Origin: Actinomycetota bacterium | GTDB lineage: Bacteria > Actinomycetota > UBA4738 > HRBIN12 | Reading direction: 5' to 3' | Length of the DNA stretch: 64,000 nucleotides | Assembly: GCA_035697485.1 (NCBI GenBank) | Contig: DASSCU010000024.1 | Coordinates: 124,001 to 188,000 of the forward strand | In this document: in pieces, positions 56,925-64,000 of the stretch | Numbering within the stretch: position 1 is the first letter of the stretch | Layout: each line of letters opens with the position of its first letter | The notes under the pieces: model-generated | The model's input: the letters and a program-made list of their open reading frames with translations, nothing else | Databases searched by the model: none | What the model was told of the DNA's origin: nothing | Made by a program: the position numbers and the translations under genes

Positions 56925-58127
56925 ATGGACGAGCTCGCCCGCCCGCCCGCGACCACCGGACGGCCGCTCGAGCGCCCTCTCGACGCCGCGGCGGGCCGGC
57001 GCGCGACGCTGCCGTTGCTCGCCGGCTACCTGGCGTTCGGTCAGTACTGGGGCGTCTGGGTGATCCTCGTGTTCGACTTCCAGCGGTTCCACGGGCTGAC
57101 GTCGAGCCGGCTCGGTGCCCTCTACACGATGCTGTCGCTGACGGCGGTCGCGGTGATGCTCGTGGGCGCCCCGAGGCTGCAGCGGCTGCCGCTCACGACG
57201 ACCGTCCCGCTGTCCATGCTCGTGCTCGCCGGGGGCTCGCTCGTGATCGCGTATCAGCCGACCGCCATCATCGCCCTCGGGTTCCTGATCGTGGGCGCCG
57301 GCAACGGCCTGATCGACGTCTACCTGAACGTGGCTGCCCAACGGGTCGAGGTCGCCACGAGGCGCCCGGTGCTGCAGTGGCTCCACGCCTCGTACGCGCT
57401 CGGCGGCGTCACGGGAGCCGCGATCGCGGGGCTGCTGCTGGTCGCCGACGTCGACTACCGGTGGGGGCTGGCTCTCGCGGGTCTCACGCTCGCCGTCACC
57501 GCCGCCTGGAACGCACGGACCGCGCCCCCTGAGCGCAGCCCCGAGGGTGCCCAGGCCGTCTTGTCGGTCTCCGCGCTCTTCCGCACGCCGGCGCTCTGGG
57601 TACCGGCGCTCACCGTGCTGTTCGCGTTCCTCGTGGAGGGGTCGATGGATGCGTGGTCGGGCCTGTACCTCCGCGACGAGCTCGGCGCATCGGCGGGGGT
57701 CGCGTCGCTCGCCTTCATCGCGTTCTCGGGCGCGATCTTCCTCGGCAGGCTCTTCGCGGGGAAGGTGCTCTTCGGGCTCGGCCCTCGCACGACGATCATC
57801 GTGGCCGGGGCGGGATCCTTCGTAGGAGGTCTGCTCGCGATCGCCACTGACGACCTCGTCGTCGTGGCGATCGCCTACCTGATCCTCGGGTTCATGATCA
57901 GCGCGGCCGCACCCGCGGGGTTCAGCCTCACCGAGGACATCGACGAGGATCCCACCAGCGCGATCGCCGCCGTCACGACGGTCGGCTACACGGGTTTCAT
58001 CTGGAGCCCGCCGCTCTTTGGTTATGTCGCCCAGACGATCGATCTGCGGGCGGCGATGGCCGTAATCGTGATCGCCACCGTCGGGATCATCGTCGCGGGA
58101 CTCATGGCCCCACGCTCACGAGTGTGA
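56925..58127 (+). CDS. MFS transporter, 12-helix
   Basis: This 400-residue protein has about 12 helices with an N-terminal acidic tail. Recognisable features: LGALYTMLSLTAVAVM, GFLIVGAGNGLIDVYLNVAAQRVE (helix 4), LHASYALGGVTGAAIAG, and the C-terminal half starting TPALWVPALTVLFAFLVEGSMDAWSGLYL. These resemble the fucose/YbjJ-like group of MFS proteins of unknown substrate. The end overlaps the convergent DUF3291 gene by 12 bp. A weak CATCAT box 6 nt before the ATG suggests a leaderless message. Confidence 0.88.
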   Translation: MDELARPPATTGRPLERPLDAAAGRRATLPLLAGYLAFGQYWGVWVILVFDFQRFHGLTSSRLGALYTMLSLTAVAVMLVGAPRLQRLPLTTTVPLSMLVLAGGSLVIAYQPTAIIALGFLIVGAGNGLIDVYLNVAAQRVEVATRRPVLQWLHASYALGGVTGAAIAGLLLVADVDYRWGLALAGLTLAVTAAWNARTAPPERSPEGAQAVLSVSALFRTPALWVPALTVLFAFLVEGSMDAWSGLYLRDELGASAGVASLAFIAFSGAIFLGRLFAGKVLFGLGPRTTIIVAGAGSFVGGLLAIATDDLVVVAIAYLILGFMISAAAPAGFSLTEDIDEDPTSAIAAVTTVGYTGFIWSPPLFGYVAQTIDLRAAMAVIVIATVGIIVAGLMAPRSRV

Positions 58128-58574
58128 GCTCGGCGGCGGCGGGAACGCATCGCGGAGCGTGAACCCCTCGCGGGTCGGACCCCGCGCACGGAGCGACTCG
58201 AGCTTCGTCTTCGCGTCCTCGACCATCGGGGTCTCACCCGCCCGGATCCACCACAGGGCCGTCGATGCCTCGGCGAGCTTCTCGAACCACTCGGACCGGC
58301 GTCGCAGGTAGCCCGCGTGCTCCGACCGGAACACGAACGCGTGGAGCGCCTCGACCGAGTCCCAAACCGACATGTTCACGATGATCATGTCGTCGTCGAA
58401 GACCCGGAGCGCGGTCGCGTCGCCGTCGTCGGTCTGCAGTCGCCACACGAACCCGGGGCTCGCATCCGCGAGCGTGTTGATCGGTTCGAGCCCGTCGACG
58501 AACGCCTGCATCGACGGGCGGTCGAGCGGCTCCCGCAGGCGGGCGACGTTGATCTGCGCGACGTGGAAGGTCAT
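58116..58574 (-). CDS. DUF3291-type dimeric alpha+beta barrel protein
   Basis: This 152-residue protein fits DUF3291: starting FHVAQINVARLREPLDRPSM, then FVDGLEPINTLADASPGFVWRLQTDDGDAT, NMSVWDSVEALHAFVFRSEHAGYLRRRSEWFE and WWIRAGETP. The fold resembles antibiotic monooxygenases, but no catalytic residues are known. It stands alone. TAGGCT lies 7 nt before the ATG at 58574 (leaderless), which decides the start. Confidence 0.85.
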   Translation of the reverse strand: MTFHVAQINVARLREPLDRPSMQAFVDGLEPINTLADASPGFVWRLQTDDGDATALRVFDDDMIIVNMSVWDSVEALHAFVFRSEHAGYLRRRSEWFEKLAEASTALWWIRAGETPMVEDAKTKLESLRARGPTREGFTLRDAFPPPPSSHS

Positions 58575-58581
58575 GGCGGGC

Positions 58582-58587
58582 AGCCTA
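58582..58587 (-). promoter_or_regulatory. -10 box of leaderless DUF3291 transcript
   Basis: TAGGCT on the minus strand, 7 nt upstream of the ATG at 58574. Confidence 0.5.
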
Positions 58588-58648
58588 GCGTGACCTTCCC
58601 GAGGTCCGGACCGACGTCGCTCTTCGGCAGCCCTCGGCGAGTGAACCG

Positions 58649-58936
58649 TTACGCGGTGTCCTGCTCGATCTCCCCGTCGTGCCACTCGGGCTCGTCCTCG
58701 AGCAGCGCTCGGTACTCGAGGTACCGCTCGTGCTGCGCCGGGTCGTCGGCGTTGCGCTCGTACGTTTCACGATCGGTGAAGACGGCGAACATCCAGGCGG
58801 TGTCGCTGTCGTTCTCGAAGAGCACGTAGGAGGTCACGAACCCAGGGACCTCGTCGTAGCCCTGCCGCTCAGTGACCTTGCTGAGCTGCTCCCGGTTCTC
58901 GGGCTTCACCCGCGTGCGCGCCACGGTGCCGTACAT
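58649..58936 (-). CDS. Antibiotic biosynthesis monooxygenase (ABM)-like small protein
   Basis: This 95-residue protein matches small ABM-like ferredoxin folds: YGTVARTRVKPENREQLSKV at the start, VPGFVTSYVLFENDSDTAWMFAVFTDRETYERNADD in the middle. It probably forms a dimeric barrel; the substrate is unknown. GGAAGGGGGA precedes the ATG. It lies 74 bp from the next gene on the same strand (DUF3291), a protein of similar fold. Confidence 0.75.
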   Translation of the reverse strand: MYGTVARTRVKPENREQLSKVTERQGYDEVPGFVTSYVLFENDSDTAWMFAVFTDRETYERNADDPAQHERYLEYRALLEDEPEWHDGEIEQDTA

Positions 58937-59045
58937 CGGCTCCCCCTTCCCGCGGGCACGCTCGGTCGGACGGTCGCGCCCACGCTACGCCCGCAGGATC
59001 GTCGGGTGAACCCCCTCTTCGGCCCCGCCGTGCCGACGCTCGGGG

Positions 59046-59051
59046 TACGCT
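59046..59051 (+). promoter_or_regulatory. -10 box of leaderless lipoprotein transcript
   Basis: TACGCT ends 6 nt before the GTG at 59058. Confidence 0.4.
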
Positions 59052-59057
59052 CGGCTG

Positions 59058-59561
59058 GTGCGTTCGGCTTCCCTGGTGACGGTCGTGCTCCTGGTCGCGT
59101 CGTGCAGCCTGGTCGACGACCCGGCGCCGTTCGCACCCCTTCACCAATCGGTCCGCCAGGAGATCCCCGGTACGTTCGGTTACGACCTGCTTCCGGTCGA
59201 CGGCTTCGATCCAGCGATCGATCCGCTGCAGGCGTGGCGAGGACTCACCGGCGCGGCGGGTGGCACCCACGTCTCCGTCACGCTGGCCGCGGTCGAGGAC
59301 CCCGTCGACGGCGGTTGGGGGCCGTCGTGGGTGTTCTTCACACGCGACCTCTGCTACTTCACGGCCAAGGGTGACTTCGTCTCGCCCTCGCGCAGCGGCG
59401 ACGGCGACGGCTGCACGCCGCGCAATGTGCTCGTTCAGGTGGTCGATGCCTCGACAGGCGATTTCGTGGCGGTCTTCGAGGCCTACGACGCGGACCTCAC
59501 CTGGCTGCCCGACCGTGTGGGAACGCCCGCTCAGGTGCCGGGGGCGAGGCGCTTCCAGTAG
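59058..59561 (+). CDS. Putative lipoprotein of unknown function
   Basis: This 167-residue protein begins with a short signal ending VASC16, a plausible lipobox. The rest is a soluble domain without a known family: GTHVSVTLAAVEDPVDGGWGPSWVFFTRDLCYFTAKGD contains strands and two Cys (C115, C136) that could form a disulfide outside the membrane. The 3' end overlaps the convergent polyamine-receptor gene by 31 bp. The -10 box 6 nt upstream supports the GTG. Confidence 0.6.
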   Translation: MRSASLVTVVLLVASCSLVDDPAPFAPLHQSVRQEIPGTFGYDLLPVDGFDPAIDPLQAWRGLTGAAGGTHVSVTLAAVEDPVDGGWGPSWVFFTRDLCYFTAKGDFVSPSRSGDGDGCTPRNVLVQVVDASTGDFVAVFEAYDADLTWLPDRVGTPAQVPGARRFQ

Positions 59562-60784
59562 TCGAGCCAGCGCGCGCGTTCGCTCGGGCCGAACCCCACG
59601 AGCATCTGCGCATCGGCGAACGTGCCGTTGTCGAGCAGCGTGCTGATCAGGTTCGGCGGCACCTCCATGTGCCACGGCGAGTCGGGTGCCGCGAACGCCT
59701 GGGGCGTGACCCCCTCGAGGGGCGGTTGGTAACCGTTCCAGCAGAAGTTCTCCACGCCGACGCGCGTGTCGAGCAGGTGGTTCAGGAACGCGTGCGCGAG
59801 CTCGGGGTGCCGGCCACGCGCGCAGACCGCCATCAGGTCGCACCCGACGATCTTCTCCGATCCGGGGGGGGACCAGAACCGGAGCTTCGCGCCGAGGTCG
59901 AAGTCGCCCTCGGCCGCCGCGTACCCCGGGGCAGACAGCACGTCGCCCGACCACGCCTGGTGGGCGGCGAACGCACCCTCGGGCAGGCCCTCCTCGACTC
60001 CGTCGTTCGTGAACCGCACGTGGGTGAGCGAGACGGCGTCGGCGAGCGAACCCACCGCGGCGTCCAGCTGCGCGTCGGTCGCGGTGCGCACGTCGAGGAC
60101 GCCGTCACGCAACAAGGCGAGCGAGATCGCCTCGAGGAAGCCGTCGTACATGCCGACCCGCCCGCGGTAGTCCGGGTTCCAGAAGACGCCCCACGGGTCG
60201 GTCGCCGCATCGGGCGCATCGGCCGCATCGACCATGTCGGACCGCCACGCCACGCCGCTCACGTACACGGTGTACGGCAGCGAGTATCGCTGCCCTGGGT
60301 CGTAGAACGGCCCACCGCCCTCACGGAACCAGGGCCAGAGGTTGCCGACGTTGGGGAGCCGACCGTGGTCGAGCGGGCGCAGCAACCCCGCGTCGATCAA
60401 CCCCGGCAGGACATCGATCGTCGGGAAGAACACGTCGAACCGCGTGTCGGGGTCCTGCAGGCGCGATATCGCCTCGTCCATGTGCGTGAAGCTCTCGACC
60501 TCGACCCGCACGGAACCCCTCGGGAACGAACGTTCGAACGACGAGAGCGTGCTTTTCGACAGGTAATCACGCCATTCGTAGACCCTGAGCACTCCCTCGT
60601 CGTCCGGCTTGCGGCTCTCGAACGTCGGGCCGACCGGTCTCGCCCCTGACCCCAGTCGCCCTCCCCGGTCGCGGTCGCAGGCCGCCAGCAACGCCGGGAA
60701 CGTGACGCCGACGGCAGCGAGTCGTCGCAGGAACGCCCGCCGATCGAGCCCGGGAACATCGTGCCGAGGGTCCACCGGGCCCAT
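59531..60784 (-). CDS. Orphan polyamine-type ABC substrate-binding lipoprotein (third receptor)
   Basis: This 417-residue receptor has a Tat motif RRAFLR (15-20) and lipobox LLAAC36. GVLRVYEWRDYLSKSTLSSFERSF, then NFCWNGYQPP near the end, place it with PotD-like receptors. NFxNWNGYQPP is also in the set 2 receptor, to which it is closer than to set 1. No permease or ATPase is beside it; it could dock onto the set 2 permease. The ATG at 60784 begins the signal peptide directly. Confidence 0.88.
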   Translation of the reverse strand: MGPVDPRHDVPGLDRRAFLRRLAAVGVTFPALLAACDRDRGGRLGSGARPVGPTFESRKPDDEGVLRVYEWRDYLSKSTLSSFERSFPRGSVRVEVESFTHMDEAISRLQDPDTRFDVFFPTIDVLPGLIDAGLLRPLDHGRLPNVGNLWPWFREGGGPFYDPGQRYSLPYTVYVSGVAWRSDMVDAADAPDAATDPWGVFWNPDYRGRVGMYDGFLEAISLALLRDGVLDVRTATDAQLDAAVGSLADAVSLTHVRFTNDGVEEGLPEGAFAAHQAWSGDVLSAPGYAAAEGDFDLGAKLRFWSPPGSEKIVGCDLMAVCARGRHPELAHAFLNHLLDTRVGVENFCWNGYQPPLEGVTPQAFAAPDSPWHMEVPPNLISTLLDNGTFADAQMLVGFGPSERARWLDYWKRLAPGT

Positions 60785-60824
60785 CTTGCGGGAACGGACG
60801 TGCGGGCCGCAAGGAGCGCGACGG

Positions 60825-61646
60825 CTAGGCTTCGGGCGGCTCGATCTCGGGAGGCGCCGCGCCCTGCCCCCACGCGTCGGCGCCGCCGTCGACGAGTACC
60901 GACGACCCCGTGATGTAACCACCGCCCGCCGAGGCGAGGAACGCGATCGTCGCGGCGACCTCCTCGGGCAAGCCCGCCCGACGCATCGGCACCTGGGCCG
61001 CGAACCCTGCCACCACCTCGTCGCCTCCGTACTGCTGGAGCCCCTCCGTCTCGATCAATCCCGCCGCGATGCACACGGCGCGGATGCCGTAACGAGACCA
61101 CTCGTTCGACAGTGAGGAGGCCATCGTCTCAAGGGCGGATCGCGCCATCGACGAGTGCGCCATCATCGGGATGCCACGACGAGGGCTGAACCCGATGACG
61201 AGGATCGTGCCGCGTCGTCGCGGGATCATCCACCGCGTGGCCACCTCGTGCGTGAGGTGCCACACGGCGTCGACGTTCAGCCGGTGCACCGCTCGAAGGC
61301 CCTTGAGGGAGATGTCCTCGGCGGCCGCCGCGAACTGCCCGCCGGCGTTGTTCACGAGCACGTCGGCACCGCCGAAGCGCTCGTCGACCCTCGCGAGGAA
61401 CCCGGCGACCTCGTCGGGCTCTCGCACGTCGCAGGTGGCGGCGAGCACATCGGACCCGGACGCGTCGAGTTCCGCCCGCACGGCTTCGATGGGCTCCGGA
61501 CGTCGCCCGCAGATCGCGACGCGTGCGCCGGTGCGCGCGAGCTCGCGGGCCGTCGCCCGCCCGATGCCGGTGCCCCCGCCGGTGACGATCGCGACCTTCC
61601 CCTTGTTGGCGTCGGCGGTGAGCGGGGAGCGGAATCCGTCTGCCAT
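60825..61646 (-). CDS. Short-chain dehydrogenase/reductase with altered active site
   Basis: This 273-residue SDR has the NAD(P)-binding G-G-G-T-G-I-G (28-34), NNAGG and the C-terminal ITGSSVLVDGG. At the catalytic position, Y-x-x-x-K is replaced: the sequence reads MAHSSMARSALETM, as in some dienoyl-CoA-reductase-like SDRs that lack the Tyr. The substrate may thus be a CoA ester, but this is inference. The ATG at 61646 is chosen because a -10-like CATACT lies 7 nt upstream; longer frames cross the divergent gene. Confidence 0.85.
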   Translation of the reverse strand: MADGFRSPLTADANKGKVAIVTGGGTGIGRATARELARTGARVAICGRRPEPIEAVRAELDASGSDVLAATCDVREPDEVAGFLARVDERFGGADVLVNNAGGQFAAAAEDISLKGLRAVHRLNVDAVWHLTHEVATRWMIPRRRGTILVIGFSPRRGIPMMAHSSMARSALETMASSLSNEWSRYGIRAVCIAAGLIETEGLQQYGGDEVVAGFAAQVPMRRAGLPEEVAATIAFLASAGGGYITGSSVLVDGGADAWGQGAAPPEIEPPEA

Positions 61647-61659
61647 GCTGCGCAGTATG
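61644..61659. promoter_or_regulatory. Symmetric divergent leaderless start region
   Basis: CATGCTGCGCAGTATG holds both start codons and both -10-like boxes. On the plus strand CATGCT is 7 nt before the hydrolase ATG (61657); on the minus strand CATACT is 7 nt before the SDR ATG (61646). Each start codon lies in the other gene's -10 box, so the two transcripts should compete. Confidence 0.45.
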
Positions 61660-62525
61660 CCCGAGGTGACGAGCGCGGTCGTCGTCGGCAGCGGTGGGGT
61701 CCGCCTGTCGGTGCGCCTGCACGAGGCGCCCACGCCCACTGCGCCGGGGCTGCTGCTCCATCACGGCCTGGCGTCGTCCCAACGCATCTGGGACGGGGTG
61801 CTGCCCCGGCTCACACGACGGTTCCGCGTCGTGACGTTCGATGCGCGCGGGCACGGCCTGAGCGGCAAGCCGAACCGGGGCTACGGGTTCGCCCATGTCG
61901 TGGCCGACGCGCTCGCGGTCGCGCGCGACACCGGCCTCGGCCGCCCGATCGTGGTCGGGCACTCGTGGGCGCGATGGTGACGCTCGAGCTGGCGGCACGC
62001 CACCGCCGGTCGGTCGCCGGCGCCGTGCTCGTCGACGGTGGCCTGCTCCGCATGCGCGACGAGCTCGACTGGGCGGCGGCGAAGGAGTTGCTCGCACCGC
62101 CGAACCTCGCGGGCATGCCGTTCGAGGAGTTCCGTGGAGTGATGCGCATGTTCATGGCCGACGCCGTCGACGTCACGCCCGACGTCGAGACCCAGATGCT
62201 CTCGGTGATGCGCGTGCGTCGCGACGGCACGATCGCGCCGCGCCTGGCCCGCTCGAACCACTTCCGCATCCTGCGGGCGATCTGGGAACAGGACCCCGAT
62301 GACCTGTGGACCCGGGTCGCCGCGCCCACGCTCGCGATCGTCGCTCACGGCACCGACGCCGACCGCGACGTGAGGGCGCGTCGGGCGGCAGCAAAGGTGC
62401 AGGAGCTCACTCGTGGGCGAGCGGTCACGGTTTCATGGATGCGGGGCATCCACGACCTGCCTCTGCAGCATCTGGACGCCGTCGCCCGCCGCATCGAACG
62501 CTTCGCGCGAAGCGCCGTAGGCTAG
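61657..62525 (+). pseudogene. Alpha/beta hydrolase, frameshifted
   Basis: The first part (61657-61980) reads an alpha/beta hydrolase start: LLLHHGLASSQRIWDGVLPRL, FDARGHGLSG and VVGHSW, then RW and a stop. The rest continues in the +3 frame as GAMVTLELAARHRRSVAGAVLVDGG through to 62525, with a His in GIHDLPL. Adding one G in the run at about 61966-61970 would restore VVGHSWGAM, the nucleophile elbow. So one base is missing. This is either a real inactivation or a sequencing error in a G-run. Intact, the protein would be about 289 residues. Confidence 0.8.
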
Positions 62526-62532
62526 GGACGGG

Positions 62533-62802
62533 ATGTTCGTGCTCGTGTTGATCCTGCTGTTGCTCGCCGCCGTGTTCGGTGTGCTCGGAGCCGTGCTGAA
62601 GGCGGTGGCGTTCCTCGTGATCACCGCCCTGCTCACGGTGACCGTGCTGGCCGCGCTCGCATGGTGGGGCTTCAAGCGAGCGACCCGCGAGTTCCGGGCA
62701 GAGTACGATCGGCAGATCACCGAGCAGCGGGTCACCCGCTACCGCGTGAACGAGGCGCAGCACGACCCCGAGCACCTGCCGCCGCACGACGACCGATACT
62801 GA
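62533..62802 (+). CDS. Small two-helix membrane protein
   Basis: This 89-residue protein has two adjacent hydrophobic segments (about 1-22 and 25-47), and a charged, mostly helical tail (RATREFRAEYDRQITEQRVTRYRVNEAQHDPE). The family is unknown. TAGGCT lies 9 nt before the ATG, with GGGACGGG between. It ends exactly against the stop of the convergent FAD enzyme gene. Confidence 0.55.
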   Translation: MFVLVLILLLLAAVFGVLGAVLKAVAFLVITALLTVTVLAALAWWGFKRATREFRAEYDRQITEQRVTRYRVNEAQHDPEHLPPHDDRY

Positions 62803-64000
62803 TCAGCGGCGACGGTGTCGCGCGGCCCTCTTCGCGACCCACTCCCGATACGCCAGCGGCGCGTACCCGGCCGCATCCAGCAGGATGCCGCGCGACCGAC
62901 CCGCGTCGGCGCGACGGTCGCCCGCCTCGAGCGCCCGCGACGAGAGCCACACCGCCGGGAAGCGCAGGGGTTCGGGCGGCGACTTCGCCTCGGGCCCGAC
63001 GACCGGCATCGAGGTCCACTCGTCGTCGAGGCCCAGCACCATCGAGGCGAGGATGCGCCCGCCCAGCATCGTCTGGGATAGCCCGTGCCCGGAGAACCCC
63101 ATGCCCGCGTGCACGTTGCCGGGCTCGAGCGTGCGGAAGAACGGCAGGAACGTGGCGGTCTGGTCGATCGGTCCGCCCCACGCGTGGGTGAAACGGATGC
63201 CCTCCAGCTGCGGGAAGAGCCAGAGCAGCCCTCGGGCGGCGGCCTCGGCAACACGGCGGTCGTGCGAGGCCGCTCGCCCCCCTGCCCTGCCACCGAACAC
63301 GACGCTCAGGGCGCCGCCGCCGATCACGATGCGTCCGTCGTCGGTCGGACGCAGGTAGTACACGAGCTCCCGCCCGTCGCCGATGCCCACCTGCGACGTC
63401 CAACCGATCTCCTCGAGGCGGTCGGGGATCGGCTCGGTTGCGACCACGTGGTCCGCGATCACGCCGAAGCTGCGGCGGAAGCCGGGCCAACCAGCCGCCC
63501 ACGCGCCGATCGCGAGCACCACCGCCCGAGCCTTCACCGCGCCGTGGGTCGTGCGCACGACCGCCGGCCGCGAACGATCGAGCCCGGTCATCGCCGTCCG
63601 CTCGAAGATGTGGACCCCTCGCTCGAGCGCGACACGACGCAGGCCTCGCGCGAGCCGGGCCGGCTGGACGATGGCGCCGTCGGGACCGAACCGCGCCTCG
63701 GTGAATCGGGGTGAGTCGGCGATCGCCCGAGCCTCGTCGAGCGGGATCGGCCGCAGTCGATCGCCAAGCCCCCTCGCTTCGAGGAACGCCGCCGCAGAGG
63801 TCTCGTCGACGTCGGTCTGCCACGGTCCCGTCGCGACTCGCATCGTGCCCTCGTGGTGGAACCACGCGTCGACGCCATTGGCCTCGAGCCACGCGCCCGC
63901 CTCGCCGACCGTGTCGGCGACCGCCTGCAGGTAGCGCAGCCCCTCGTCCTCTCCGAAGAGCGCGCACGTGGCCGGCGCGTCCCACCACGACGACGAGAAG
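62803..64000 (-). CDS. DAO-type FAD-dependent amine oxidoreductase (N-terminus outside window)
   Basis: The frame stays open to the end of the window, giving the last 398 residues. It belongs to the DAO family (glycine/sarcosine oxidase and gamma-glutamylputrescine oxidase type): VQPARLARGLRRVALERGV, KARAVVLAIGAWA, YYLRPTDDGRIVIGGGA, and the C-terminal HAWGGPIDQTATFLPFF and HAGMGFSGHGLSQTMLGGRIL. The Rossmann GxGxxG is upstream of the window. It would oxidise an amino acid or amine. SSSWWDAPATC near the left edge, with its Trp pair, resembles gamma-glutamylputrescine oxidase. It probably adds to the amine-catabolic set. Confidence 0.85.
   Translation of the reverse strand, partial: FSSSWWDAPATCALFGEDEGLRYLQAVADTVGEAGAWLEANGVDAWFHHEGTMRVATGPWQTDVDETSAAAFLEARGLGDRLRPIPLDEARAIADSPRFTEARFGPDGAIVQPARLARGLRRVALERGVHIFERTAMTGLDRSRPAVVRTTHGAVKARAVVLAIGAWAAGWPGFRRSFGVIADHVVATEPIPDRLEEIGWTSQVGIGDGRELVYYLRPTDDGRIVIGGGALSVVFGGRAGGRAASHDRRVAEAAARGLLWLFPQLEGIRFTHAWGGPIDQTATFLPFFRTLEPGNVHAGMGFSGHGLSQTMLGGRILASMVLGLDDEWTSMPVVGPEAKSPPEPLRFPAVWLSSRALEAGDRRADAGRSRGILLDAAGYAPLAYREWVAKRAARHRRR

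Follow-up and report, generated by a model that had tools for sequence, protein, structure and literature searches.

The window analysed here, a stretch of 64,000 nt from the genome G000, carries an SDR gene on the minus strand (60825..61646, 273 aa) and, divergent from it, an alpha/beta hydrolase gene on the plus strand. The SDR product matched Pfam adh_short_C2 (4.1e-48) and resembles PECR; its best match among solved structures was 1yxm, a peroxisomal trans-2-enoyl-CoA reductase (1.7e-62). SDR enzymes usually contain the motif Tyr-x-x-x-Lys. In the SDR alignment this motif seems to be replaced, with H164, S165, A168 and R169 invariant in all seven orthologs.

The hydrolase is encoded in two parts that lie in different frames. 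The 5' part (61657..61980) matched Abhydrolase_1 (4.5e-15) and was 69% identical over 104 aa to its counterpart in G001, a congener of G000. The 3' part (61971..62525) was 74% identical to G001 over 184 aa, and by itself gave no Pfam match. The frame changes just after the GHSW motif (61957-61980 of the window), and in both G001 and G007 the two parts are in one frame. The identities of the 3' part to G001 at the three codon positions were 0.83, 0.86 and 0.63, as expected if coding constraint remains. Because the gene is intact in relatives and its downstream part is still constrained, the frameshift would be either a recent change or an assembly error.

Downstream of the hydrolase lies a gene for a small membrane-like protein of 89 aa (62533..62802, plus strand), whose match to Pfam SLATT_1 was below the curated cut-off. 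The other adjoining genes were assigned by Pfam to an MFS transporter, a DUF3291 protein, a weak ABM match, a solute-binding protein and an FAD oxidoreductase. Among the seven neighbouring genes (56925-63843) Pfam detected no regulator family, and 59076-59561 gave no Pfam match of any kind.

The start codons of the SDR (61646-61644, minus) and the hydrolase (61657-61659, plus) are separated by 10 bp. The 16 nucleotides from 61644 to 61659 read CATGCTGCGCAGTATG, and this sequence and its coordinates were exact, as was the earlier report of opposite genes with starts 10 bp apart. The back-to-back layout is thereby confirmed. The SDR start agrees in position with those of the aligned orthologs. 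For the hydrolase, an alternative in-frame ATG at 61645..61647 (plus), which overlaps the SDR start codon and is also present in G001, would lengthen the protein by four codons; it has neither a Shine-Dalgarno sequence nor a -10 motif at the right distance. Another possible start is the GTG at 61666, which has CAGTAT at a spacer of 7 and is not kept in G001. The N-terminal length of relatives favours 61657.

A -10-like hexamer, CATACT, lies 7 nt before the SDR ATG (61659-61654, minus), begins at -13 and includes the hydrolase start codon. The likely -10 hexamer of the hydrolase, CATGCT (61644-61649, plus), has the same spacing, also begins at -13, encloses the SDR start codon and is the same in G001. 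These positions bear out the claim of the preliminary description that each start codon lies inside the -10 candidate of the other gene. With 10 bp between oppositely directed starts, the CAT opening each hexamer is the other gene's ATG read on the complementary strand. CATACT and CATGCT were the only NANNNT sequences in the 60 bases 5' of the respective starts. No TANNNT was found on the reading strand in 61300-61660 (plus) or in 62000-61641 (minus), and no Shine-Dalgarno tetramer of the AGGA/GGAG/GAGG type within 16 nt of either ATG.

The 16-mer had also been described as nearly self-complementary. This holds, with seven of the eight positions pairing and G61647/T61656 as the exception, but the palindrome is weak evidence and not striking. 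Three of the eight pairs (six bases) are the two start codons themselves. Four of the remaining five pairs match, for which the probability (at least four of five) is 0.027, and 16-bp near-palindromes of this quality are common in the window (93, versus 79.8 with an SD of 5.1 in 10 first-order Markov sequences). We therefore draw no support for a function of the site from the palindrome.

The inner part of the 16-mer, CTGCGCAG, is a perfect 8-bp palindrome and is the same in G001, which would suit an operator bound by a dimeric regulator, whether repressor or activator. G007, G008 and G009, however, have other bases at these inner positions. When up to two mismatches were allowed, the genome contained one other site (C56:45089-45106), which scores as coding, and the pattern and its reversed control gave three hits each on both strands. 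The operator was rejected on the inner bases and on the coding score of its sole other site, and we regard such a role for the dyad as highly improbable.

In M. tuberculosis, leaderless genes make up 26% of those with a primary start site (PMC3898074), and the -10 element of the vegetative promoters of Propionibacterium acnes is TANNNT (PMC3848588). Genes were called with our own codon-score script, whose start choices are approximate. TANNNT was present at -15..-12 of 58 of the 407 called starts in G000, versus 4.6 expected from flanking positions, with peaks at -13 (21 starts) and -12 (22 starts). The corresponding counts were 24 of 176 in G008 (2.4 expected) and 14 of 153 in G009 (2.7 expected). 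The motif is thus enriched 6-9 nt 5' of called starts.

The sampled genome resembles the leaderless transcripts of M. tuberculosis (PMC3898074) in being enriched for TANNNT 6-7 nt 5' of start codons, and the two starts studied here resemble them in having no Shine-Dalgarno sequence. On the other hand, the first base of both hexamers is C and not the T of the TANNNT described there, because nesting at such a distance requires CAT. That report calls a transcript leaderless when 5'-end mapping gives a 5' UTR no longer than 5 nt, whereas the present genes are predicted members of the class.

CANNNT was not enriched at the starts (11 versus 12.2 expected in G000, 7 versus 3.5 in G009, 2 versus 4.0 in G008), and CATNNT was slightly enriched (6 versus 3.3, 3 versus 0.6 and 2 versus 0.8, respectively). 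A motif that begins with C is therefore in itself no evidence for a promoter, and the proposal that the two genes are leaderless is carried by comparison with relatives, not by the motif alone.

For the SDR, 17 genomes of the family were compared, eight of which contained the gene at E <= 1e-80; the copy in G002 is cut by a contig end, which left seven for use. CATACT was found in five of the seven orthologs, at -13 in G000, G001, G008 and G009 and at -15 in G007. G011 has CATCAT at -13. G006 has no such motif, and has AGGA at -10; the other six orthologs have no Shine-Dalgarno tetramer. In G008 and G009 the hydrolase is not beside the SDR, and CATACT is kept where no start codon needs its CAT, which makes this the strongest single evidence for the SDR promoter. 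A conserved -10-like hexamer 6-9 nt from the start together with the lack of a Shine-Dalgarno sequence, by which we recognize leaderless genes, was thus found for the SDR, with C as the first base in place of the usual T. A leaderless SDR start with a nested -10 is well supported by these comparisons.

The hydrolase was found in 11 genomes of the family (E <= 2e-21). It lies beside the SDR in G000, G001 and G007, at a contig end in G010, and elsewhere in seven. In all seven of these unpaired hydrolases (G003, G004, G005, G006, G012, G013 and G014), TANNNT precedes an ATG or GTG with a spacer of 7-9; G003, G004, G013 and G014 offer a further candidate start, a GTG farther downstream that lacks the motif. 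No TANNNT-type motif was seen at the one start examined for the hydrolase of G022, which belongs to another family. The regularity among the unpaired relatives makes a leaderless hydrolase probable.

In the paired genomes the hydrolase hexamer is CATGCT at a spacer of 7 (G000 and G001) or TAGCAT at a spacer of 12 (G007), in all cases overlapping the SDR start. None of these starts has a Shine-Dalgarno sequence, and CATGCT was seen only in G000 and G001. As its hexamer is 12 nt from the ATG, the G007 gene would carry a short leader. CATGCT shares the A and the last T with the consensus, and this A belongs to the SDR start codon. Given the lack of CANNNT enrichment at starts, the evidence is weaker for the hydrolase promoter than for that of the SDR. 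The preliminary description had called each gene leaderless. This stands for the SDR, whose CATACT is kept with and without the hydrolase; for the hydrolase, a leaderless start with a nested -10 is moderately supported, by the seven of seven relatives with TANNNT, its own hexamer being CATGCT.

It may instead be that the SDR promoter is alone at the site and that CATGCT simply results from the SDR start codon. The hydrolase transcript would then carry a leader and begin within the SDR gene or elsewhere. The lack of enrichment of CANNNT, the share of the SDR start codon in the A of CATGCT and the spacer of 12 in G007 would all agree with this. Against it, the plus strand contains no TANNNT in 61300-61660, no Shine-Dalgarno sequence precedes the hydrolase ATG, all seven unpaired hydrolases of the family have the leaderless layout, and the identity between G000 and G001 described below spans the site. 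We consider this alternative doubtful.

The preliminary description had proposed conservation in relatives as a check, and the interlocked pair was found in three genomes of two genera (G000, G001 and G007), with start gaps of 10, 10 and 12 bp. G000 and G001 have the same 16-mer, with SDR proteins 80% and hydrolases 69-74% identical. In G007, with its gap of 12 bp, the inner bases differ, and the palindrome inside the site is thus not conserved beyond the genus. Pairwise comparison of G000 with G001 showed a run of 23 identical bp at the site (61644-61666). The longest identical runs elsewhere were 20 bp in the SDR, 12 and 20 bp in the two hydrolase parts and 15 bp in the small gene, and the identity at third codon positions was 0.60 in the SDR and 0.51 and 0.63 in the hydrolase parts. 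Because the run at the site exceeds any in the neighbouring genes, in which 51-63% of the third positions are identical, some constraint on the whole element is likely.

The SDR tree was ((G007,G008),(G002,(G009,(G000,G001)))), with bootstrap values of 89-95% at the forks. This tree accommodates two losses of the hydrolase (in G008 and G009) as economically as two gains. We favour loss, twice, from an ancestral pair, because the small gene lies next to the hydrolase across the family (3' of it in all 11 family genomes with a hydrolase match), and it is this small gene that stands opposite the SDR in G008 and G009. In a wider set of SDR relatives from named genomes (the best 80 of 560 confirmed stretches), no hydrolase was beside the SDR at any of 79 loci within the flanking DNA covered, a sample that may leave out records near G000. 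For 13 of these 79 loci the upstream motif was scored: TANNNT precedes the candidate start in L086, L092 and L096, CAGAGT in L093, and no motif was found in nine.

The close spacing, unlike the palindrome, does count as an argument, as the gene arrangement is rare. Start gaps of 8-14 bp were found in none of the 71 called divergent neighbours of G000 (464 kb, window included), none of 35 in G009 (200 kb) and none of 28 in G008 (200 kb). The present pair is not among the 71 because the script, misled by the frameshift of the hydrolase, placed the start of that gene at 61965.

The symmetric pattern CATNNTN4ANNATG occurs at 31 sites in the genome, all of which were scored. The present site alone had clear coding potential outward on both sides, with L031 doubtful. 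The reversed control pattern occurs at two sites. This excess over the control is overstated, because most of the other sites (24 of 30) are crossed by a frame with a coding score >20. The stronger form CATANTN4ANTATG was found five times in 27 genomes of the class (once for the reversed control), none of them between divergent genes. With one clear divergent pair among 31 sites, and none among the five of the stronger form, a recurrent device was rejected. Separately, the symmetric CATAGTGCCGACTATG was seen in L201:1501-1516 (G010:C164:15848-15863) at the start of a 410-codon frame with a GC3 of 0.93; on its other side lies merely a 52-codon frame of low GC3.

We think that the two genes are probably leaderless and served by a compact bidirectional promoter at this site. 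Each gene would have its own -10 hexamer 7 nt 5' of its ATG, and transcription would begin at each ATG or 1-2 bases from it, which places the predicted starts 11 apart (61646 and 61657). The two diverging mRNAs would have no complementary sequence in common, and antisense pairing is therefore not expected if the starts are as predicted. As to its origin, packing appears the most likely: the SDR -10 is independent of the hydrolase, and the hydrolase start would have been placed on it.

A related account is that two separate weak promoters became packed together by chance and that their interlock has no function. It differs from the compact bidirectional promoter solely in denying constraint on the closeness. 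The palindrome probability of 0.027 is compatible with it, and so is the finding that only one of the 31 CATNNTN4ANNATG sites is clearly a divergent pair, the motif not being a repeated device. The presence of the pair in two genera with gaps of 10, 10 and 12 bp speaks against it, as does the 23-bp identical run, and we judge it unlikely.

Warman et al. 2021 is said to be the founding paper on bidirectional promoters. The class has been defined by divergent starts 7-25 bp apart (PMC10268837). In E. coli such starts are most often 18 bp apart, with 10 and 23 bp also common, and opposing polymerases cannot bind together (PMC12825309). Closely juxtaposed divergent promoters are likewise called common in a figure legend of the M. 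tuberculosis study (PMC3898074). The present site is like the bidirectional promoters with a symmetric -10 (PMC12825309, PMC10268837) in that its predicted separation of 11 falls within 7-25 bp, and looks like a compact case of this already described kind. It differs from them in that both transcripts are predicted to be leaderless and the start codons themselves lie within the -10 hexamers, and in that the published cases were recognised from mapped transcription starts, while this one is predicted from sequence. The commonest published kind, with 18 bp, shares one -10, whereas here there are two neighbouring hexamers (PMC12825309). We found no title in the literature on divergent leaderless genes with start codons in each other's -10, and do not claim from this that none is in print.

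In a bidirectional promoter of this compactness the two polymerase footprints would fall on the same DNA, so that binding by one would shut out the other. This occupancy by one polymerase at a time, as in the E. coli promoters (PMC12825309), would follow from the overlap of the footprints and the published cases. In the five E. coli bidirectional promoters examined, basal transcription was too low for competition, although a strongly activated side can cause the opposite one to be repressed (PMC12825309). At ordinary (weak) promoter strength, exclusion would probably have little effect on output.

The pair had been proposed to form a switch, in which mutual exclusion of polymerases makes SDR and hydrolase expression alternate. 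The geometry admits one polymerase, the layout recurs in G000, G001 and G007, and the E. coli promoters show that strong activation one way can repress the other (PMC12825309). However, no regulator family was found among the seven adjoining genes (56925-63843), the palindrome inside the site varies beyond the genus, and at basal level the five E. coli promoters were not active enough to compete (PMC12825309). Moreover, G008 and G009 keep the SDR promoter without the hydrolase, which makes this partner dispensable, and the hydrolase reading frame is broken in the G000 assembly. The switch is thus a possibility that these results do not support, and we think it very unlikely. There is equally little likelihood that selection keeps the reciprocal interlock of start codons and -10 hexamers so as to force either-or transcription of a PECR-like reductase and a hydrolase.

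Should transcription starts map to the predicted positions, the site would be a minimal natural two-way promoter, in which coding and promoter information occupy the same letters on both sides. It would also be a clean site for asking whether polymerase exclusion affects gene expression. The arrangement shows how leaderless genes can pack closer than leadered genes.

Other close divergent pairs were seen at larger gaps. The pair at L080:4820-4853 (G000:C5:24820-24853) has a gap of 32 bp with TACGCT and TAGGCT, a full TANNNT for both genes, and is by motif a cleaner back-to-back leaderless pair than the SDR and the hydrolase. In G008, two called divergent pairs have gaps of 31 and 32 bp.
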